Source: a virus. Taken from it: 27,078 bases of DNA. Location of the stretch: the IMG/VR virus record IMGVR_UViG_3300009492_000002, positions 7,974 through 35,051 of that record. One strand, 5' to 3'. This document shows, piece after piece, positions 3,284-13,180 of the stretch (position 1 is the stretch's first letter; each line of letters starts with the position of its first letter). Position numbers and translations under genes: made by a program. The notes beneath the pieces are model-generated. The model was given only the letters and a program-made list of their open reading frames with translations. It made no database searches and was not told the origin of the DNA.

Positions 3284-4102
3284 ATGAAGTACGCGTCAGA
3301 ATCAGGCCATTGGTACAACAGGGATGGATCGACTTGTTACACATTAATAGGTAAAAATGGAAAAACGAGAAACACGACACTAAGAGATGCAAGAAAACTA
3401 AAACTGGTCCCATCCGTAACAGAAATAATGAAAGTAATGGCGAAACCAGGATTAGAGCGATGGAAGCAAGAACAAGTAAAGTTATCCGCACTAACGCTAC
3501 CTCAAGTAAAAGGAGAAACACTGGATGAGTTTTCTCGTCGAATTGATAGTGACGCGTCAAAACAAGCTCTGGACGCGCAGAAGCTGGGGACCAGCATACA
3601 TGGCGCAATAGAAAGGCATTTCCAAGGCAAGGAAGTAACAGAGCATAAAGAAATAGTGAGACGACTAATAATGGTATTGCAGGATGAGTTCGGCGATCAG
3701 GATTGGTCGTCAGAAAAATCATTCTCACACCATTTTGGTTTCGGCGGAAAAGTAGATATACACTCTAACGAATGGGTCATAGATTTCAAAACAAAAGACT
3801 TCACGCAAGAGGATATGAAAAAGAAATTCTCTATCACCGACAATTTAATTCAGCTATCCGCCTATAAGCTAGGTCTGGGCGTCGATGAGGCGAATATTGC
3901 AAACATCTTTATATCCAGAACAGAATCAGGACTCATAAAAGTAGAAAAACACGAAAAAGAATTGAACTTTTTATTCGTCACGCTACTGAACTTCTGGAAA
4001 AAACTAAAAGAGTATGATTCTGGTTATACTCAAGATAACATGAAGCCTCAACAAGAGGTAAACCTAAATGATTGCAGAAAAAAGAGAGAACAAATTAAAT
4101 AA
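3284..4102 (+). CDS. PD-(D/E)XK exonuclease (RecB/Cas4-like fold)
   Basis: This 272-residue nuclease has the motif set of the RecB/Cas4-type PD-(D/E)XK fold: GTSIHGAIE at 102-110 (His106), GGKVDI at 154-159 (Asp158), IDFKTK at 166-171 (Asp167, Lys169), and QLSAY at 190-194. Such phage enzymes resect or trim DNA ends for homologous recombination, often paired with an annealing or ssDNA-binding protein. Here the partner could be the protein just upstream. The ATG at 3284 is 2 bp after the previous stop, with AGGA in the end of that gene as ribosome binding site. The 3' end overlaps the next gene by 35 bp. Specificity (double-strand 5'-3' or other) cannot be read from sequence. Confidence 0.85.
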   Translation: MKYASESGHWYNRDGSTCYTLIGKNGKTRNTTLRDARKLKLVPSVTEIMKVMAKPGLERWKQEQVKLSALTLPQVKGETLDEFSRRIDSDASKQALDAQKLGTSIHGAIERHFQGKEVTEHKEIVRRLIMVLQDEFGDQDWSSEKSFSHHFGFGGKVDIHSNEWVIDFKTKDFTQEDMKKKFSITDNLIQLSAYKLGLGVDEANIANIFISRTESGLIKVEKHEKELNFLFVTLLNFWKKLKEYDSGYTQDNMKPQQEVNLNDCRKKREQIK

Positions 4103-4997
4103 AAAATCAGAATGGCAAAAAGTATTAACTGGCCACCAAAGAAGAAAAGAAAAAGAACCTACGTTCCTGACAACTCAAATGCTTCCAGAGGACGCAGAGT
4201 ACCTACTGGAAGAGAACGACCATAACCGTCACATGCAAACAAGAGTGGTTGATCGTTACAAGCGATTCATGAAAGCAGGTAAGTGGCGATTAAACGGCGA
4301 GTGCATAAAAATAAGCACAGATGGAATACTGCTTGATGGGCAACACAGGCTCGAAGCGTTAAGGCAACTAGGAAAACCAGTAAGAATGTCTTTAGCGATA
4401 GGCGTTGCCCCTGACACTTTTGCCATCAACGACACAGGCAAGCCCCGATCATCTGGAGATATTCTTTCTATCGCTGGATACAAAAACGTAAATGCAAACG
4501 CTGCCGCGCTCAGATTTTTATTATGGTATAGGGATTCTGAAGTTTTCTCTTCACGAATAGATATATGTCCAGACGACATACTAACCGCGATAAAAAGATG
4601 GCCGCACATCACATACTTTGTCTATCCGTCTATAGAATTCAAAACATTAATGCCTAGCAGTATTGTTCAGTTTTTCATGTACATAACCCAAACCATAGAT
4701 TCAGAAAAGTCTTATCTCTTTTTCCAGAAATTATTAACTGGAGAAGGACTAAAGAAAAAATCAGGTATATTGCAACTCAGAAACATGTTGTTGAAATACA
4801 AGATATCAAATCTATCAATGGATAAAAGACATCATGTTGCTTGTCTAGTTTTGGCATGGAATGCCTTTATAGAAGATAGGCCAGCAAAAACAATAAAATG
4901 GAACGGTAAAAGCTTTCCAGCAATAACTGGAATTGATAGAGATTTACTGTTCAAAAAGAACTCAGGCTTCAGTGCAAATCATTTCGACGAAAGCTAA
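4068..4997 (+). CDS. DGQHR-motif ParB/sulfiredoxin-superfamily protein
   Basis: This 309-residue protein carries the signature LLDGQHRLEAL at 88-98, preceded by GKWRLNGECIKIS and followed by INDTGKPRSS at 120-129. The DGQHR box marks the ParB/Srx-like fold, seen in ParB N-terminal domains and in DndB/DGQHR proteins of DNA modification loci. The remaining C-terminal 170 residues are helical and match nothing I know. The start is ATG 4068, with AAGAGGT 8 bp upstream inside the exonuclease gene, so translation is likely coupled. A role in DNA transactions together with the exonuclease is inferred from position. Partitioning is unlikely because there is no ParA and the phage has an integrase. Confidence 0.7.
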   Translation: MIAEKRENKLNKKSEWQKVLTGHQRRKEKEPTFLTTQMLPEDAEYLLEENDHNRHMQTRVVDRYKRFMKAGKWRLNGECIKISTDGILLDGQHRLEALRQLGKPVRMSLAIGVAPDTFAINDTGKPRSSGDILSIAGYKNVNANAAALRFLLWYRDSEVFSSRIDICPDDILTAIKRWPHITYFVYPSIEFKTLMPSSIVQFFMYITQTIDSEKSYLFFQKLLTGEGLKKKSGILQLRNMLLKYKISNLSMDKRHHVACLVLAWNAFIEDRPAKTIKWNGKSFPAITGIDRDLLFKKNSGFSANHFDES

Positions 4998-5084: not shown

Positions 5085-5390
5085 ATGTTACTCACCTTAA
5101 AAGATGTCGCAAAAGAGCTTCAATGCAACTATCAGACAGTCAGAAAAATGGTTGCTGATGGAGTCATTGCTGGAATGTACATCAATGAGCGCTGCATACG
5201 GATTCACCCTGATAGTTTAGATAGCTACATCGAAAATAAACTCAAAGAGGCTACGTTATGCAAGCAACAAAGAACAAAACAACAGGAAGGTATCAACTCA
5301 GGTTTTATGACACACAAGGAGAGAGACAGCACTTCTCGTCGTCAACGGATTTCCCAAAGGGCATTACTAAACGAGAGGCGGACAAAATAG
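5085..5390 (+). CDS. xis: MerR/excisionase-like DNA-binding protein
   Basis: The first 55 residues form a helix-turn-helix of the excisionase/MerR type (LTLKDVAKELQCNYQTVRKMV, then a wing with RIHPDSLDSYI). This small domain is usual for phage excisionases that bend attachment-site DNA and steer the integrase toward excision. The last 45 residues are Arg/Lys/Gln-rich and lie in DNA that also encodes the start of the integrase (133-bp overlap, different frame). This tail may be constrained mainly by that overlap. The gene lies directly upstream of int and downstream of a hairpin overlapping its ribosome binding site. It could also be a simple int regulator. The symbol is assigned by position and fold. 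Confidence 0.65.
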   Translation: MLLTLKDVAKELQCNYQTVRKMVADGVIAGMYINERCIRIHPDSLDSYIENKLKEATLCKQQRTKQQEGINSGFMTHKERDSTSRRQRISQRALLNERRTK

Positions 5391-6262
5391 CGACAGAGAT
5401 ATATGAGATACATGAGCAAACAATAGCAATATCAAAACTTCCATCATTAGCTGATTGCGTAGAACGAATGCTAGTGCATCTTGAGAACACAGGAGTGAAG
5501 GGAATAAAGGTATACAGGAGCCATGCCAAAAAAGCACTCGAACACAATAATAACAATTCGATTAATGACATTGTAAAGGTCTGCGTGAAAATGAGAGACG
5601 ATATGCTTTCCGCAAAAAACCCTAACGGATCACCAAGGTATTCAGGGAACACTATAGGCAAACGAATGTATATATATAAGCGCACGGCTAACCTAGCATA
5701 TCAAGAATGGGATTTGCTTGATGCCCCCGTCTCTGAAAAAATGAAAGCACCAAAAAAACCTAGAGCAAGAGTTAGGTTTTTAACAAAAAAAGAATGTAAG
5801 GACCTGGTCGATAACTGCGAGGATCAACAAACCGGTTATATCATTGCTTTCAAAGCATTAACAGGGATTCGCCATGCTGAACTAGAAAGAATGACTGAAG
5901 AGGATCTTGTTGACAATCGAATAGTAATAGACGGAAAAAACGGAACTGTTCGCTCATTCGCCATATCCGATGAAGCGATGGCCATTGCAAAAAAGATCGA
6001 CTTTCCAGTAACCCTAACCTACGACCACATATATAAACATTTCTGTGATGCAAAAGATCTATCGGGGATTGAAGACTTCGGAATGCATGATCTACGCCAT
6101 ACTTTCGCTTCTTGGCTCGCTCAATCAGGGACTGTGTCACTGCACCATCTACAACAGGTTATGGGGCATTCACAGATAAACCAGACACTAAAGTACGCTC
6201 ACTTAATGCCTAAAGATCTAGATAAAGTAGCCTCCGGTTTATCAATAGAAAAAAAAGAATAA
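5258..6262 (+). CDS. int: Tyrosine integrase
   Basis: This 334-residue site-specific recombinase has all the catalytic residues of the family: Arg205 in TGIRHAE, a candidate beta-hairpin lysine near 227 (DGKNGT), His277 and Arg280 in HDLRHTF, His304 in MGHS, and the nucleophile Tyr313 in LKYAHL. The N-terminal 50 residues fit an arm-site-binding domain and residues about 63-155 a core-binding domain. The start at ATG 5258 has AAAGAGG 7 bp upstream inside xis. The gene ends about 230 bp before a tRNA-Asn 3' fragment flanked by repeated TTTACCC words, so the enzyme very probably integrates the phage at the host tRNA-Asn gene by recombining at that core. The length is standard. Confidence 0.95.
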   Translation: MQATKNKTTGRYQLRFYDTQGERQHFSSSTDFPKGITKREADKIATEIYEIHEQTIAISKLPSLADCVERMLVHLENTGVKGIKVYRSHAKKALEHNNNNSINDIVKVCVKMRDDMLSAKNPNGSPRYSGNTIGKRMYIYKRTANLAYQEWDLLDAPVSEKMKAPKKPRARVRFLTKKECKDLVDNCEDQQTGYIIAFKALTGIRHAELERMTEEDLVDNRIVIDGKNGTVRSFAISDEAMAIAKKIDFPVTLTYDHIYKHFCDAKDLSGIEDFGMHDLRHTFASWLAQSGTVSLHHLQQVMGHSQINQTLKYAHLMPKDLDKVASGLSIEKKE

Positions 6263-6489: not shown

Positions 6490-6534
6490 CTGTTAATCCG
6501 TTTGTCGCTGGTTCGAGTCCAGCTCGGGGAGCCA
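6490..6534 (+). other. attP core: 3' fragment of tRNA-Asn
   Basis: The segment starts in the anticodon loop (CTGTTAA, anticodon GTT) and contains the 3' anticodon strand TCCG, a complete T-arm (GCTGG, TTCGAGT, CCAGC), the 3' acceptor strand and GCCA. The bases before 6490 do not form the 5' anticodon strand, D-arm or 5' acceptor, so this is not a full tRNA. About 45 bp would match the host gene and rebuild it on integration. Confidence 0.85.
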
Positions 6535-6540
6535 CATTCT

Positions 6541-6573
6541 AAAAGCCTCTTAGCGATAAGAGGCTTTTTTTTT
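6541..6573 (+). terminator. Rho-independent terminator behind the tRNA fragment
   Basis: A perfect 12-bp stem (6541-6552 with 6557-6568) with a GCGA loop is followed by an uninterrupted T-run to 6573. Placed 6 bp after the tRNA CCA, it would replace the host tRNA terminator after integration. The A-run on the 5' side means it could also work on the minus strand. Confidence 0.88.
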
Positions 6574-6863: not shown

Positions 6864-7157
6864 ATGAAAAAAACAACAAAAGCCGTTATCTTGCTTTCTT
6901 TTCTACTAACTACAACATCTTGCTCAACTGACGTTGAATCAGCTGGTATTTGCAGAAGAGTTCATGGCTGCACAGAGCAGGAAAGGGAAAAGCATTGCCA
7001 AAAAGTAAAGCAGCAGGAATATATTTTATGTGAAGAAGGCGTAGATATTGAAATGGAGTCAATGCCAGACTTTGATTTCGGTCCAGGATACAGAAAAAAG
7101 AGATATAATGGCTGTAGAACCAAGGCAAAAAGAGCCTACACCAAGTGTAAGCGTTAA
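6864..7157 (+). CDS. Small six-cysteine lipoprotein (lysogenic conversion candidate)
   Basis: This 97-residue product starts with a lipoprotein signal peptide: Lys-rich head, hydrophobic AVILLSFLL, then TTTSC with the lipid-modified cysteine at position 20. The mature part has six further cysteines (30, 36, 45, 56, 84, 95), enough for three disulfides, and a basic C-terminus (KAKRAYTKCKR). No family is recognised. It would be anchored in the inner or outer membrane, facing the periplasm or the surface. Located between attP and the tail-fibre genes, with its own upstream palindrome and opposite in direction to the virion operon, it looks like a moron expressed in the lysogen, as lambda bor is. 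Superinfection exclusion or serum/stress resistance are possible but unproven roles. The start at ATG 6864 has AAAGAG upstream. Confidence 0.75.
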   Translation: MKKTTKAVILLSFLLTTTSCSTDVESAGICRRVHGCTEQEREKHCQKVKQQEYILCEEGVDIEMESMPDFDFGPGYRKKRYNGCRTKAKRAYTKCKR

Positions 7158-7202
7158 TAAAAAAGATAACAGTGAGAAGGAGCTGGTAAGTAATCAGTAA
7201 TA

Positions 7203-7237
7203 ACTACCTACCAATTAGCACCGAATTGGTAGGTAGT
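7203..7237. repeat. Perfect 14-bp-arm inverted repeat, no U-tract
   Basis: The arms 7203-7216 and 7224-7237 are perfectly complementary around a 7-base loop. It lies 46 bp after the lipoprotein stop, so it may stabilise or end that mRNA, but no T-run follows on either strand. A smaller dyad (TCTAAT / ATTAGA) follows at about 7268-7286. Confidence 0.7.
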
Positions 7238-7370
7238 TGGTAGTAACAGCATAAGAACCGAGCACCAATCTAATCAATAAATTAGATACAGGCTTCTTGA
7301 AGCAGAGCATGCACATCGTCTTGCTCATGAGCGACAAGCTCTTTACCTACCCAACCAGCAACTACTTTTA

Positions 7371-7406
7371 ATGAAGGCTCGCCTAGATGATTCGGCGAGC
7401 CTTCAT
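7371..7406. repeat. Perfect 13-bp-arm GC-rich inverted repeat
   Basis: The arms 7371-7383 and 7394-7406 are perfect complements (ATGAAGGCTCGCC) around 10 bases. It lies about 40 bp downstream of the YadA-like gene on the minus strand and could protect or end that transcript. No T-run follows. Confidence 0.7.
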
Positions 7407-7447: not shown

Positions 7448-7975
7448 TCAAAGGCGATAACCAATGCCTACCCCGACGCGCTGCTCATTTCGACTATACC
7501 CCACAGTGACTTTATAGACTAAATCGTCGTCAACATAATGGACCCCGATAGCACCGGCATTTACACCACCTAACCCGCTTGCGCCAGCACCAATAAAAAG
7601 ACCATCAGAGGTGGGAGACGGAACGTTCGATATTGCTCCTCCGACAGCTATTACAGCAATCATATCTAGGTCATTGTAATGGCCAGCGTAAAACGACTCG
7701 CCGTTCGAACCCATCATACCTTCTGGCCCCTTAACTCCTCTATCACCCTTATCTCCTTTGTCTCCCTTGTTATTTTTCCCACTCATTATCTTTAATCGAC
7801 GATTTATGTCTTTTATCGAATTGGTGTTAGTTTCTATACGGCGAGCGCCCTCTTCAGCCTTTAGGTATTTACCACCAATACCACTACCTATTAAACTTGA
7901 CGCAAATACAGGTGTGGACGATAGCGAGAAGGCTAACGTAACCAAGACTATATTTATTAAACTATTTTTTTTCAT
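7448..7975 (-). CDS. Miniature YadA-like trimeric autotransporter with collagen repeats
   Basis: This 175-residue outer-membrane protein candidate has four parts. Residues 1-25 are a Sec signal peptide ending VFA. Residues about 38-68 form a coiled coil of trimeric-adhesin type (IETNTNSIKDINRRL). Residues 71-94 are eight Gly-X-Y triplets (GDKGDKGDRG onward). Residues about 95-175 match the YadA anchor pattern: VPSPTSDGLFIGAGASGLGG, NAGAIGVHY, and the final strand VGVGIGYRL. Three chains would build one 12-strand barrel with a short collagen-like stalk. There is no head domain. The start at ATG 7975 has TGGAGA 5 bp upstream. It lies between tail fibres and attP, the place of lom in lambda, so lysogenic conversion of the host surface (adhesion or receptor masking) is inferred. 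Prophage-borne Eib proteins are known trimeric autotransporters. Confidence 0.8.
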   Translation of the reverse strand: MKKNSLINIVLVTLAFSLSSTPVFASSLIGSGIGGKYLKAEEGARRIETNTNSIKDINRRLKIMSGKNNKGDKGDKGDRGVKGPEGMMGSNGESFYAGHYNDLDMIAVIAVGGAISNVPSPTSDGLFIGAGASGLGGVNAGAIGVHYVDDDLVYKVTVGYSRNEQRVGVGIGYRL

Positions 7976-8079: not shown

Positions 8080-8211
8080 TTATGGTTTTTTTCCTCTTTT
8101 TTTCTGAGAGATAGCAATAGCCTGCCCCTGCTTTACTGCATCTTTTTTGTTTCGGTAAACCTTTCCTTTTGTTCCATACTGATAACCCCCTTTTACTTTT
8201 CGTACCGGCAT
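8080..8211 (-). CDS. Small basic phage protein
   Basis: This 43-residue product begins MPVRKVKGGYQYGTKGKVY and ends in a Lys-rich tail. Many phages carry short proteins of this shape (VRKVKGGY, then GKVY, then an AxxQGxAI helix), usually near tail or lysis genes, with no known role. ATG 8211 is preceded by GAGAAG. It lies at the downstream end of the virion operon. Confidence 0.6.
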   Translation of the reverse strand: MPVRKVKGGYQYGTKGKVYRNKKDAVKQGQAIAISQKKRGKKP

Positions 8212-8322: not shown

Positions 8323-8541
8323 TCACCTGGCGCATCCGTTATCAATCCAAAACTGATCACGGCCATCTGGGTAGGAATTTGGATAACCTAGACTGTCAAA
8401 CACGTCTAGCCACATATCCTGATTCGCGCCGATAGTAGTAGCAACATGCGCTAATAAGAATTCATGTTCAGCATCCTGAATCCCATTAGATGTCGCGCCG
8501 TTCGCTTTGTAATACGCCAATTTGCAATCGTTATACGCCAT
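8323..8541 (-). CDS. Small tail-associated protein
   Basis: This 72-residue protein starts MAYNDCKLAYYKANGATSNG and has a C-terminal segment with a DMWLDVFDSLGY stretch and FWIDNG. Similar short proteins, or C-terminal segments with MW-x-x-x-LxxLGY and FW motifs, are common directly after tail-fibre genes in podoviruses and siphoviruses. Their role is unknown. The ATG at 8541 has GGGGG upstream. It follows the tail protein gene at 8551-9318 with a gap of 9 bp and is probably co-expressed with it. Confidence 0.65.
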   Translation of the reverse strand: MAYNDCKLAYYKANGATSNGIQDAEHEFLLAHVATTIGANQDMWLDVFDSLGYPNSYPDGRDQFWIDNGCAR

Positions 8542-8550
8542 CGCGGCCCC

Positions 8551-9318
8551 CTATAGTTCTGCATCTACTTTTAAAAGCGATATGGTAAATCTCCGTGATG
8601 GCGCTGCCCCGTCAACAGTACCAAATATTGTAATTCCTGATTCATCAATCACCTGTCCTCCAACATCAGTCCCAGTATTAACTGTGTAACTCAATGTCGG
8701 GGCAGCTCTCATTATGGTTGGTAGGTCGATACCTAAAGCTGTGTTACCAGTCCCGTCACCAAGATAACTTGTGAACTGCTTATTAGATTGATAGTAGTAC
8801 CTTAAGCATTTTTGAAACTCACTAGCTTGGTCCGGATACTCAAATAGTGTGACTGTTCCGCCTACTTCCAGTTTTACTTTTGAACAAGTGCCGACGCTAT
8901 TAACCGCAAAATACCAATCATCGGTGCTTGTGATATTGAAGGGGTAAGGCGACGTAACATTATTGAACTTATCTCCACTTCCTAAAATACCAATTGTTAG
9001 ACTTGCTGTTCCTTCCCACGAAAGAACAACTCCCCCCGAATAATTAAACCGTTCTACGACTTGTAATAGACGTCCACTATTAACAGTCATAACACCATCA
9101 ACAAAGTCAGCGTTAGACGCGCCTGAAGCATCCCTCCATCTATCTACTGAAAATGCACCCGATCCAATTGCACCACCTGCAAAACCACGCTGATTAATGT
9201 TAAAGCTGGGATTAATAATATAATTCTTACCTATGACATCATCAGAATGACTGTGACACTGAAAGTCATTAAATAACTGACGTAAATTTATTTCTGCCTG
9301 CCTAAAAAACGCACTCAT
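8551..9318 (-). CDS. Tail fibre-like / receptor-binding candidate protein
   Basis: This 255-residue protein has an N-terminal helical part (FFRQAEINLRQLFNDF), then YIINPSFNINQRGF and VDRW, the start of a beta-rich domain often seen in phage tail-fibre and hydrolase proteins, and later FQKCLRYYYQ, a recurrent motif near the C-terminus of such proteins. I place the start at ATG 9318, in an ATGA overlap with the previous stop and with AGGA just upstream. An ATG 24 bp earlier lies inside the fibre gene. It follows two fibre genes and probably forms a distal or accessory tail part. Direct receptor binding is inference. Confidence 0.7.
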   Translation of the reverse strand: MSAFFRQAEINLRQLFNDFQCHSHSDDVIGKNYIINPSFNINQRGFAGGAIGSGAFSVDRWRDASGASNADFVDGVMTVNSGRLLQVVERFNYSGGVVLSWEGTASLTIGILGSGDKFNNVTSPYPFNITSTDDWYFAVNSVGTCSKVKLEVGGTVTLFEYPDQASEFQKCLRYYYQSNKQFTSYLGDGTGNTALGIDLPTIMRAAPTLSYTVNTGTDVGGQVIDESGITIFGTVDGAAPSRRFTISLLKVDAEL

Positions 9319-12128
9319 AATCCTGTCAACTCCAAATTGCAAACGGTACTAACTGAGTCAATCACCTCAGCTCTGTCTTCCGTCACAATTAAATTATTAA
9401 ACTTCGTAATGTGATTTGCACTGCACACGGTTAAGATATTATTTGATGGATCAAAATCCATCGCTCTTATATCTGAGCTTGTCCCTTGTAAAAGGCATTT
9501 AGCGTTTTGGTTAAAGAGCGGTTTTTCTGCTTCGTATATGGCCTTAATTTGATCTGTTGTTAGAGCACCTGCACCGATCCTTATTAATGCCTCCCTGTGA
9601 GTATTCCCGACAGATCCATCCCATGCAGCACCAATAATCAATGGAGCCGTGTTAGAAAGACTGCCTGAGTCTGCTGCTAGAATCTCCTCATTCCCATTCA
9701 CCACTAAAACAATTATTCCGTCACGTCTTATTACAGAAACAAACGCCCAAACATCATCGGGTATCTTAGTAGTTGAAACATAAAATGTTCCCCCAATCCT
9801 AAATCTCAACAGAGCCGTAGAACTCTGCTTAGTGGCATAAAAACCATTAACACCCGTAAACTTAGAAAGCCAGTAAGTCGTGTTGGACGAATTCGCGTCT
9901 ATCCAACCCATCATATAAAAATCACCAGACCCAAAATCCAAACCTGTATTTCCAGTCTGACTTAGATAACTACCCAACACATTAAACCCCGAATACGCCA
10001 TTAGTTCTGCATTAAAAGCCACTGGTGATTTTGTGATTGTGCCGTGTACTGCTAAATGAACGGCCACATCATTTATATGAGATGAACGAGTCGGGTCTTG
10101 AGCGCTAACCGTAATGTTGTCATAATTCATTACTGCGCCAGCATCACCAAAGCAAACAAGCTTAATAACACTTACTGTTGAGGTCGCATCAAGAGCAAGA
10201 AATGTGTCGTCGTTCGCTGAACTAGAACCTAAGCTAGAGCCGGTAGGCGAATTCTCATTAAGTTCAACGCTGACGCTTCCAGTGATGTTTGTATTATTGT
10301 AGTGAACTAAGTACCTTAATCCAATTACCGTGGTGAGGCTCTGATAAGCATAACCATTGCTTGCCGTGTTGGTTATTTCTAACTCGTTTGCGACAACCGC
10401 TAACGTACAATCAACAGCCGTCCAGTCACTCGTGCCCACATCAAACGTGCCATTTACTACTAGCTCACCACCAACTAAATCTGTATCATCACCAGACGCC
10501 AACCACGCACCTTTTATGTCGCCTTGCATAAAACCAGAGACATAATCTGTTGTGGTATAGAAGACCATACCCGTGCTCTGTGAAGAAGATATAACCTCCC
10601 CCGCAACATGAGACGTCAATCCATCCTCTGAACCGATGAACTCTGTACACCCTTGCGCGACTGGGGTCAGGTTTTTCACTGATAAAGGTGAAGGAATCGT
10701 CGGGGAATCAACCCTTTGAAAGTAAAATGTACGCCATGATGTTCTTGCGAAGTCTGCGAATATAGGAAAAGGACCGTAAGACCTTACATTAAAATTAGTG
10801 CCATGAGAAAAACCCAAAACATCATCATGAATAGCTATACTATCTGCTCCGGTAGCCTCGACTATGTCAAATACTCTGAAGTCCGGATGGATAACCGATA
10901 CTCCATTGTCAGTTGCAACCGCTACAGTGTTTTTCATGCTCGAACTGATAACTGCAATATCGTTACATACATTATTAATTATGTTGCCATCACCACTACC
11001 TTTATAACTCAACGCATCATTGCGCTGACTGACATTCCCCAAATAACCATTGTATAAATTATCAACTCCAATCACTGTGCCACTATCATCTGTCATGTTT
11101 AATATAGAAAGCCTGGAGTTAATTGAGGCCACGTATATAATTCCGTTTTTGGCGACTACGCTTGGCTTACCAGTGAATATACGAAGCATATTTGATGAAC
11201 CACCGTTAAACACCATCCACATAGGGAGGGCTGGATCATCGCCATCATAAACAGTAACGGTGGCCCCTTCAGCAACAATTAATGCAAGCTTTGGAAAGGC
11301 TCTGGTTGCACCACGATCAATCGTATTTAATTCCTCATGATACCAACTTTGCGTCGTTGCTTTGTCCACCCATGCGCCGTGATCATCATCATGCACTGTG
11401 TTGTAGATAAAAACGCCAAGAACACTATTATTGTTTATTGTTAGATCCAACGCTGGAAGCACTTCAACTGATGGCGGAATGGCAAAAGGAATCCATGATC
11501 GAGCACCTGCTGAAGTACTGGATAAAACATAGCCATCTGTTGTTGGATCACCTAGTGTTGGCTCTTTTGTTGTATTTAAAATAAACCCCTGATTCGCACT
11601 CAACGCGCTAGTGATATCACCTACACCTGCCAGATCATCACGAATAACTGTACTGCCACCAGTGACGCTAGCTAATAGAATATTGCCATTGCTGTCAAAG
11701 GTAAGAATTTTATCTGCACGATCAGTCTTTTTCGGTAAAACAGGATAAGCACTATCACCAAGTGGAAACTGGAGCGCGCGAGTTAACCCTTGCGTATTTT
11801 GTTGAACCAACATAGTTAATTTATCTAACGCACCTTCGTGTGTTTCTGCTGGAAAAGCGTCAAAGGGTTGATAGTCAACTTCCTGAGTAGCGGTAACCTG
11901 TCGCAATAATATAACGGTAGCCGCTAAGGAAAGTGGCACATTTAAAATAACCAATCCGCCACCGGAATCACCCAGCCCCGTCATGGTAAATGCACCCTGC
12001 CCAATATCTACACCATCAAGCGATACAAACATATCGGTTTTCTTATCAACTCTAAAATTGTAAGCAAATGTATCTTGAGGAGGGACGCCTGCATAAGAGA
12101 TGTTTGTATCTGTCGTGAGTACCGTCAT
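9315..12128 (-). CDS. Large multi-domain tail fibre (T7 gp17-like N-terminus)
   Basis: This 937-residue protein binds the tail by an N-terminal T7 gp17-type domain (residues 1-110, with TFAYNFRVDKKTDMFVSLDG and the DAFPAETHEG segment). Residues about 225-535 are beta-rich with short repeats such as GIIYVAS and VAVATDNGVSVI, like a propeller. Residues about 553-678 look like a carbohydrate-binding jelly roll (NGTFDVGTSDW). Residues about 715-870 resemble a LamG/ConA-like lectin domain. Residues 886-912 (IRAMDFDPSNNILTVCS) look like one more propeller blade. No catalytic depolymerase motif was recognised. The start at ATG 12128 shares a base with the previous stop (TAATG). It probably recognises a surface glycan of the host. 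Confidence 0.82.
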   Translation of the reverse strand: MTVLTTDTNISYAGVPPQDTFAYNFRVDKKTDMFVSLDGVDIGQGAFTMTGLGDSGGGLVILNVPLSLAATVILLRQVTATQEVDYQPFDAFPAETHEGALDKLTMLVQQNTQGLTRALQFPLGDSAYPVLPKKTDRADKILTFDSNGNILLASVTGGSTVIRDDLAGVGDITSALSANQGFILNTTKEPTLGDPTTDGYVLSSTSAGARSWIPFAIPPSVEVLPALDLTINNNSVLGVFIYNTVHDDDHGAWVDKATTQSWYHEELNTIDRGATRAFPKLALIVAEGATVTVYDGDDPALPMWMVFNGGSSNMLRIFTGKPSVVAKNGIIYVASINSRLSILNMTDDSGTVIGVDNLYNGYLGNVSQRNDALSYKGSGDGNIINNVCNDIAVISSSMKNTVAVATDNGVSVIHPDFRVFDIVEATGADSIAIHDDVLGFSHGTNFNVRSYGPFPIFADFARTSWRTFYFQRVDSPTIPSPLSVKNLTPVAQGCTEFIGSEDGLTSHVAGEVISSSQSTGMVFYTTTDYVSGFMQGDIKGAWLASGDDTDLVGGELVVNGTFDVGTSDWTAVDCTLAVVANELEITNTASNGYAYQSLTTVIGLRYLVHYNNTNITGSVSVELNENSPTGSSLGSSSANDDTFLALDATSTVSVIKLVCFGDAGAVMNYDNITVSAQDPTRSSHINDVAVHLAVHGTITKSPVAFNAELMAYSGFNVLGSYLSQTGNTGLDFGSGDFYMMGWIDANSSNTTYWLSKFTGVNGFYATKQSSTALLRFRIGGTFYVSTTKIPDDVWAFVSVIRRDGIIVLVVNGNEEILAADSGSLSNTAPLIIGAAWDGSVGNTHREALIRIGAGALTTDQIKAIYEAEKPLFNQNAKCLLQGTSSDIRAMDFDPSNNILTVCSANHITKFNNLIVTEDRAEVIDSVSTVCNLELTGL

Positions 12129-13180
12129 TAAATTTGACCTCGATTACCCATCCAAATAAACGCAAAAGCACTATCAACTAACGCGCCGCCACCATCGTTT
12201 CTCATCTCAATAATGAATGCATCAACAGTAAAGCCACCAAAAGGGATATAACATATAGCGGTTCTAAAAATAATGGAATAAATCGCTGCACTCGTTACGA
12301 CCTGGTCTAGCGCGTTACCTAAATTTAAATTGTGCGTGATCTCATATCGACCCGTACTTAACTTCTGTGATGTCCAACCAGAAGGCAGCGTAATCTCATC
12401 ACCGAAAATATCCACCTGTCCATACTGGATCTGCTGTAGTTGTGCGTCTGTGTATTGGTTTGCAGTAGCTAGTGTTGCGGCATCTCTGATATCCGCATAA
12501 GACTTTGCATCAGCCAACACTGCTGTATCCTGAGTATCTGTATAGGTGCGATTAACAACATCAACACTGTCAGTGTAATCGTCTGCATCATTCAAAATAC
12601 TGAGTGGAGTTTCACCTGTGTCAATTGCATTCTTAAATGCATCGAATGCCATCAGGTGACCATCCGTTACACTGCCTAGTGGTTTTTGTACTGCATTGGG
12701 ATCACCTCCACCTGTGCCGGCAACCAGCGCGATATCGCCAATCGCATCAAACGATAAAAACAGTAATGACCTCGCTGTCGCCTCGGGCAAAACAGGATCA
12801 GACTCATCGCCAATAGGAAATCGAAAACTACGACGCTCTGCATCTTCATTTTGCTGCGATAACATGGTTAGTTTGTCTAACGCTCCCTCATGTGTCTCTG
12901 CGGGAAAAGCATCAAAAGGCTGGTAGTCCACTTCTTGCGTAGCAGGAACCAATCGCGCCAACACCACAACAGCTTCGACGACTAATGGTGTGTTCAGCGT
13001 GACAATGCCACCATTAGGTTCACCTAAGTTTGTTATAGTAAAATCACCCTGATCCACCAGCGCCCCATCAAGCAAAACATTCATGTCAGTCTTCTGATCG
13101 ACACGAAAATTATAGACGAATGTATCTTGACCTATTAACCCGTCATATTGGATGGTTGATGCTGTCGTAAGTAATGTCAT
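12128..13180 (-). CDS. Shorter tail fibre / adaptor with gp17-like N-terminus
   Basis: This 350-residue protein has the same N-terminal tail-binding domain as the next gene (residues 1-110), then a linker. Between about 200 and 250 it carries YTD/YAD repeats (YTDSVD, YTDTQDTA, YADIRDAA, YTDAQL) typical of a trimeric coiled-coil shaft. A beta-rich C-terminus follows (TLPSGWTSQKLSTGRYEITH and further strands). It is too short for a full fibre and may be an adaptor or a second fibre with another receptor. The start at ATG 13180 has TAGG 6 bp upstream. The two neighbouring genes compete for, or share, similar docking sites if the domains are functionally equal. Confidence 0.78.
   Translation of the reverse strand: MTLLTTASTIQYDGLIGQDTFVYNFRVDQKTDMNVLLDGALVDQGDFTITNLGEPNGGIVTLNTPLVVEAVVVLARLVPATQEVDYQPFDAFPAETHEGALDKLTMLSQQNEDAERRSFRFPIGDESDPVLPEATARSLLFLSFDAIGDIALVAGTGGGDPNAVQKPLGSVTDGHLMAFDAFKNAIDTGETPLSILNDADDYTDSVDVVNRTYTDTQDTAVLADAKSYADIRDAATLATANQYTDAQLQQIQYGQVDIFGDEITLPSGWTSQKLSTGRYEITHNLNLGNALDQVVTSAAIYSIIFRTAICYIPFGGFTVDAFIIEMRNDGGGALVDSAFAFIWMGNRGQI

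Follow-up and report, generated by a model that had tools for sequence, protein, structure and literature searches.

The stretch of DNA analysed here (the window, 27,078 nucleotides) corresponds to positions 7974-35051 of the 35,051-base IMG/VR virus record IMGVR_UViG_3300009492_000002, and the phage is a temperate podovirus. The minus strand carries the genes for the head-tail connector, the major head protein, tail proteins, internal virion proteins and three tail fibres; the gene for the terminase large subunit lies outside the window, within the first 8 kb of the record. By its major head protein, the nearest named phage is Alteromonas phage ZP6 (49% identity). A search of genome_contigs with the exact 45-nt tRNA-Asn stretch of attP, which could have led to attB or to the host, gave no match. 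PADLOC reported no defence family and Rfam nothing above its gathering score.

Two of the tail-fibre genes lie in tandem on the minus strand (9315-13180). The N-terminal domains of their products, some 120 residues long, are similar and match the same PHROG families; the C-terminal parts differ, as if two alternative fibres were encoded in one phage; the same is seen in the sister phages. For the fibre gene at 8551-9342, the scan gave no close relatives.

The gene studied here, which encodes a 175-residue protein with a YadA-type anchor, is the final late-strand gene before attP, from which it is separated by 0.9 kb (Table 1). The initial annotation had already located it between the fibres and attP, and this placement stands, attP being kept in the sister phage. 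Its base composition resembles that of the other genes of the phage. Between it and the last conserved late gene there is a small basic ORF, and on its other side, facing it, the gene for a Cys-rich protein to which no family could be matched. At the equivalent position, the sister phage G043 also encodes a secreted protein that contains Cys (L119:2744-3055), but a different one, no sequence similarity between the two being detectable. Two further small proteins with signal-like N-termini are encoded within the 8 kb to the left of the window (L002:1799-2032 and L002:2052-2336, plus strand). Their genes are flanked by that for the terminase large subunit and a candidate gene for the small subunit, and run on the opposite strand; they bring the secreted accessory candidates of this phage to at least four.

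Table 1. Features of the anchor-gene region, with the lysogeny genes of the window
Feature	Position	Strand	Basis or remark
HTH repressor-like gene	2112-2606
Tyrosine integrase gene	5258..6262	+	PHROG integrase, E 1.7e-51; homologue 68-69% identical in sister phage G043
attP, 3' part of a tRNA-Asn(GTT) gene	about 6490..6534	+	Sequence; kept in sister phage G043
Terminator after attP	6541-6568		Inverted repeat
Gene for a 97-aa Cys-rich, basic secreted protein or lipoprotein; convergent, att-proximal accessory neighbour	6864..7157	+	Seven Cys; signal-like N-terminus
Possible terminator between the convergent genes	7202..7238		Perfect 15-bp inverted repeat, 7-nt loop; no clear T-run
Possible terminator 3' of the anchor gene	7371..7406		Perfect 13-bp inverted repeat, 10-nt loop; no clear T-run
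Gene for a 175-aa headless trimeric-autotransporter-like protein (anchor gene)	7448..7975	-	ORF with ribosome-binding site; Pfam YadA_anchor above cut-off
Four beta strands, residues 125-174 (one third of the expected 12-strand barrel)	7454..7603	-	AlphaFold2; matches to solved anchors; Pfam
Helix expected to fill the barrel pore, residues 102-116	7628..7672	-	AlphaFold2; superposed on the Hia and YadA anchor helix
Eight Gly-X-Y triplets, residues 71-94	7694..7765	-	Sequence and shuffle test
Putative coiled-coil segment, residues 40-69, membrane-distal	7769..7858	-	Heptad register and model helix
Predicted Sec signal peptide, residues 1-25	7901..7975	-	Basic start, hydrophobic core; cleavage after VFA (by eye)
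Small unlisted ORF, 43 aa, basic (MPVRKVKGGYQYGTKGKVYRNKKDAVKQGQ...)	8080-8211	-
Last conserved late gene, upstream of the anchor gene	8323..8541	-	51% identical to the start of L116:17329-18096 (sister phage)

Architecture of the anchor protein

The ATG of the anchor gene is immediately preceded by a Shine-Dalgarno-like sequence, CTGGAGAG. A promoter scan at the gene stayed at chance level and gave no convincing promoter of its own, so that the gene may be expressed only late. The protein begins with MKKNSLINIVLVTLAFSLSSTPVFA, followed beyond the predicted cleavage site by SS; hydropathy peaks there at 2.4 and the AlphaFold2 model places a helix at residues 3-19. The coil that comes next has K A G I N I I L M N in its heptad a and d positions and is drawn as a helix in the model, at low pLDDT; it is a possible trimerisation nucleus for the collagen part.

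Residues 71-94, GDKGDKGDRGVKGPEGMMGSNGES, consist of eight Gly-X-Y triplets without interruption, as the initial annotation had counted them, and include three successive Lys-Gly-Asp motifs. Such motifs are established as favouring a stable collagen triple helix. A run of eight or more triplets occurred in only 0.015% of 20,000 shuffles of the mature protein (P 0.00015). With the Pfam Collagen model the score is 18 bits, short of the 27.2-bit cut-off, which is expected of a run this short; the stretch is collagen-like and is not filed here as a member of the Pfam Collagen family. Ahead of the anchor there is nothing other than signal peptide, coil and collagen, and the earlier statement that the 175 residues hold no head domain is thus borne out.

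The C-terminal part, residues 95-175, had been read as a YadA-type anchor, and two sequence comparisons agree with this. Pfam YadA_anchor (PF03895) matches residues 128-174 with 25.6 bits against a cut-off of 22.7, and an independent profile, for which 11 other phage anchors were used, gives 22.7 bits on residues 95-175, where the best of 5,000 shuffles reached 13.6. The anchor is nevertheless divergent, with 20-32% identity to other anchors, and ends in a Leu, not in an aromatic residue. A terminal aromatic residue in the C-terminal beta signal is usual for the YadA family (type Vc) without strictly defining it. The alternation of hydrophobic residues is kept (V, V, I, Y, L at -9 to -1), as are the columns that are invariant among the phage anchors.

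The predicted fold leads to the same assignment. AlphaFold2 was run on a single chain with an 11-row alignment (a single-sequence run gave a pLDDT of 31), and the model has, per chain, one helix (102-116) and four strands (125-135, 138-149, 152-161 and 166-174). Block-mean pLDDT is 74-86 over residues 101-175 and 76-86 over the strands, the coil and collagen parts being low. Aligned with VIA-align, the model superposes on the anchors of Hia (2gr8; Z 12.0, rmsd 1.1 A, 73 residues), YadA (2lme; Z 10.6, rmsd 2.0, 83 residues) and AtaA (9vnj; Z 9.8, rmsd 2.1, 81 residues), whereas unrelated rows of the comparison had a Z of 6 or less. Foldseek retrieved the same solved anchors with the model, as did the sequence profile of the phage anchors; among viral models, the Foldseek matches were YadA-anchor proteins of phages, phiEco32 and FSL SP-076 among them. 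The product is very probably a YadA-type anchor protein of the outer membrane, destined for the host cell.

A variable interval at the end of the prophage

Two related phages, G042 and G043, share with the window phage the integrase, the tail and internal virion genes and attP. For G043, the identity is 68% in the integrase, 70% in an internal virion protein and 79% in a tail protein. Its sequence has a 114-nt terminal overlap, and G042 spans that junction. From the last shared late gene to attP, the genes of G043 are unrelated to those of the window phage: the interval encodes, beside att, the small Cys-containing secreted protein, and further two proteins (130 and 153 residues) and two 94-residue paralogues, and no YadA anchor was found in it. 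Since unrelated genes occupy the same place in the sister phage, the interval is variable, and the anchor gene is accessory cargo at the prophage end. The 94-residue paralogues of this cargo interval stand in tandem, with near-identical upstream sequence (L119 of G043, 3867-4574; L116, 18481-19188).

The order fibre, YadA-anchor gene, prophage end recurs elsewhere, in L093 of provirus G037, in L099, in P-EibA and in PhiR12_2. In G037, the anchor gene stops at the end of the record and the integrase lies at the opposite end; in P-EibA, the order is J-lom-orf401-orf191A-eibA.

Relatives in phages and bacteria

Searches of phages, plasmids, viral_contigs and genome_contigs gave no close homologue of the protein over its full length. 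The first link to phage anchors came from a query with the anchor only, which reached gp428 of the Salmonella jumbo phage Munch at an E value of about 0.9; a search started from the Munch anchor, the profile and the fold subsequently bore it out. The Munch anchor itself retrieves 96 phage records at E 0.1 or better. A search for YadA_anchor in 36 relatives found by the head protein, many of them fragments, gave none. Loci L100, L101 and L103-L105, which match only upstream of the anchor, were rejected, having no anchor match with the profile.

Four phage proteins resemble that of the window in combining a predicted signal peptide, Gly-X-Y repeats, a putative coil and a YadA anchor with no recognised head: gp119 of phiEco32 (226 residues, counted from Met40 of the record), and the proteins of FSL SP-076 (320 residues), Erwinia phage RF1 (346 residues) and Salmonella phage Munch (gp428, 441 residues). 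In all of them, Pfam Collagen and YadA_anchor are both above cut-off, and there are 17-41 triplets compared to eight here. They differ from the window protein in that a coil separates collagen from anchor, whereas here the collagen abuts the anchor helix, and in that their genes do not lie between fibres and attP. MAFFT pairs the coil of the window protein with the coil that precedes the anchor in the other phage proteins, an alignment in which collagen looks inserted between coil and anchor. This coil-collagen-anchor order is unusual and was not seen in the other phage proteins examined. The smallest phage anchors include g139 of Yersinia phage phiR1-RT (122 residues), gp154 of Kosakonia phage 305 (138 residues) and gp003 of Proteus phage P59 (194 residues), which like the window protein have a signal-like N-terminus and an anchor, are headless and have a minimal passenger. 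Unlike it, they lack collagen, belong to T4-like or Privateervirus phages and are not encoded beside attP.

The initial annotation had called the minimal combination unusual. In view of the four headless proteins with both collagen and YadA anchor, and of the smaller anchor proteins of phiR1-RT and 305, this was overstated. With 175 residues, the window protein is the shortest collagen-bearing headless anchor among those examined, the next being phiEco32 gp119. It is a real, intact and divergent member of the phage-borne headless YadA-anchor proteins.

In other phages, the homologues sit among small non-structural genes, for example adjoining a dUTPase gene, and neither with tail genes nor in lysis cassettes. 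That virulent phages have yadA homologues was pointed out in 2013, when the location of the FSL SP-058 and FSL SP-076 genes apart from the tail genes was stressed; SP-076 is described as virulent and as lacking a lysogeny module (PMC3728262). The annotation of several phage YadA-anchor proteins (L087, L113, L115 and others) reads 'tail protein' or 'receptor binding protein', labels that look doubtful given their signal-like N-termini and outer-membrane anchors.

By position, the closest analogue is the Eib protein of an E. coli prophage, P-EibA. It likewise has a YadA-type anchor and is encoded after the J-lom-tail-fibre region of a temperate phage; it differs in its larger passenger (392 residues in all) and is immunoglobulin-binding by annotation. 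The lom gene of P-EibA is annotated as a homologue of lambda Lom. In lambda, Lom and Bor, an outer-membrane protein and a lipoprotein, are encoded near late genes and act in lysogenic conversion; Lom, unlike the window protein, is a monomeric Ail-type barrel, and no homology is claimed. Collagen repeats are combined with a YadA anchor in the VtaA proteins of Haemophilus parasuis as well, which are virulence-associated (PMC6211672). These differ in being encoded by large bacterial genes, in having the head and stalk domains of YadA and in their ESPR signal peptides.

Proposed role and its alternatives

After export by Sec, the product would be inserted in the host outer membrane as a trimer, in which three four-strand units would form a 12-strand barrel around three pore helices. 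Outside the membrane, each trimer would present a short rod without an adhesive head, made of a collagen triple helix of about 7 nm and a coiled coil of about 4-5 nm; the total of about 11-12 nm is calculated from 24 collagen residues at ~0.29 nm and a 30-residue helix at 0.15 nm. Such rods could hinder access to receptors sterically, so that other phages would reach the surface of an infected cell or a lysogen less easily. The whole explanation, optional cargo encoding an outer-membrane trimer whose headless rod hinders the adsorption of other phages, is the one that we favour, and we regard it as evenly balanced between right and wrong. Surface display is well supported, better than the function, and hindrance of adsorption as the main role is put forward tentatively, as a plausible reading on which we stay just short of that balance.

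Several labels and matches could be taken to mean that the protein is a minor virion component, a collagen-bearing fibre or tail part: PHROG tail-fibre families match through the collagen stretch, some homologue records carry the words 'tail protein' or 'particle associated', and prophages commonly encode collagen-like fibres (PMC3368898). To read the PHROG matches as evidence of a tail fibre was rejected, as the best of them cover mainly the coil and the Gly-X-Y stretch. A homologue in fENko-Kae01 was detected by LC-MS/MS in a washed lysate, which also held polymerases and ligases and so gives no proof of a virion location. The signal-like N-terminus and the outer-membrane anchor, together with homologues that lie apart from tail genes, argue for a host-cell protein rather than a virion part, and a virion role seems to us very improbable. 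We give hardly any credence to the idea that the gene is a decayed, functionless remnant of a larger bacterial or phage autotransporter. The divergent anchor, the terminal Leu and the very short passenger would fit such an origin; against it stand an intact frame with a ribosome-binding site, an unbroken Gly-X-Y run, the alternation of hydrophobic residues at -1, -3, -5, -7 and -9, and the retention of the invariant anchor columns. A late outer-membrane protein that acts in the lytic phase, aiding release or stopping progeny from re-binding to debris, is an unlikely explanation, even if the gene stands downstream of the late tail genes on the same strand, has no strong promoter of its own and belongs to a phage whose scanned ORFs include no recognised spanin or lysis protein of the outer membrane, for the homologues lie outside lysis cassettes, among small non-structural genes.

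Altered cell-cell adhesion is the main alternative, less likely than hindrance. The protein would then be a lysogenic-conversion adhesin, expressed in the lysogen and making it sticky to cells, surfaces or a eukaryotic host, like Eib and, in part, lambda Lom. We regard this as possible and somewhat doubtful. The position of eibA, which follows J, lom and two tail-fibre-region genes in P-EibA, matches that of the window gene, the proviruses with L093 and L099 have such genes at their ends, and the virulence-associated VtaA proteins join collagen to a YadA-type anchor (PMC6211672); adhesion is moreover the general habit of the family. On the other side, the window protein has no head and only about 70 extracellular residues, and many homologues belong to virulent phages, which form no lysogens. 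Such phages keep headless versions, some of only 122-138 residues, and would gain nothing from a long-lived adhesive cell, which favours hindrance of adsorption, a function for which no adhesive head is needed. What counts against hindrance is that EibA, the closest positional analogue, is annotated as immunoglobulin-binding, and that most characterised autotransporters of the YadA type are adhesins; the divergence of the anchor and its terminal Leu also weigh against the explanation as a whole.

Lysogenic conversion of the cell surface had been proposed for this gene from its position. The part of the proposal that concerns cargo at a prophage end is upheld by the sister phage and by P-EibA, PhiR12_2 and the two proviruses; lysogeny as such is not required, many carriers being virulent. 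Since virulent phages carry relatives, action during lytic infection would be as plausible as action in the lysogen.

The window protein shows how small a trimeric autotransporter can get with its anchor retained, and it joins the Eib prophage proteins, the 'agglutinating adhesin' genes of virulent phages and phage collagen into one testable group. Headless YadA-anchor proteins, from the 122-residue versions of T4-like phages to the collagen-stalked ones of phiEco32-like, jumbo and temperate phages, might serve phages generally as a means of remodelling the host outer membrane during infection, superinfection exclusion being one example, and 'adhesin' might then mislabel most of them; this broader reading is speculative, and we hold it with considerable doubt. 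If the blocking of adsorption is true, these proteins would be an outer-membrane counterpart of the superinfection-exclusion proteins already known, and this would account for their occurrence in virulent phages. The barrel with its eight-triplet collagen stalk would, besides, be a compact display scaffold.
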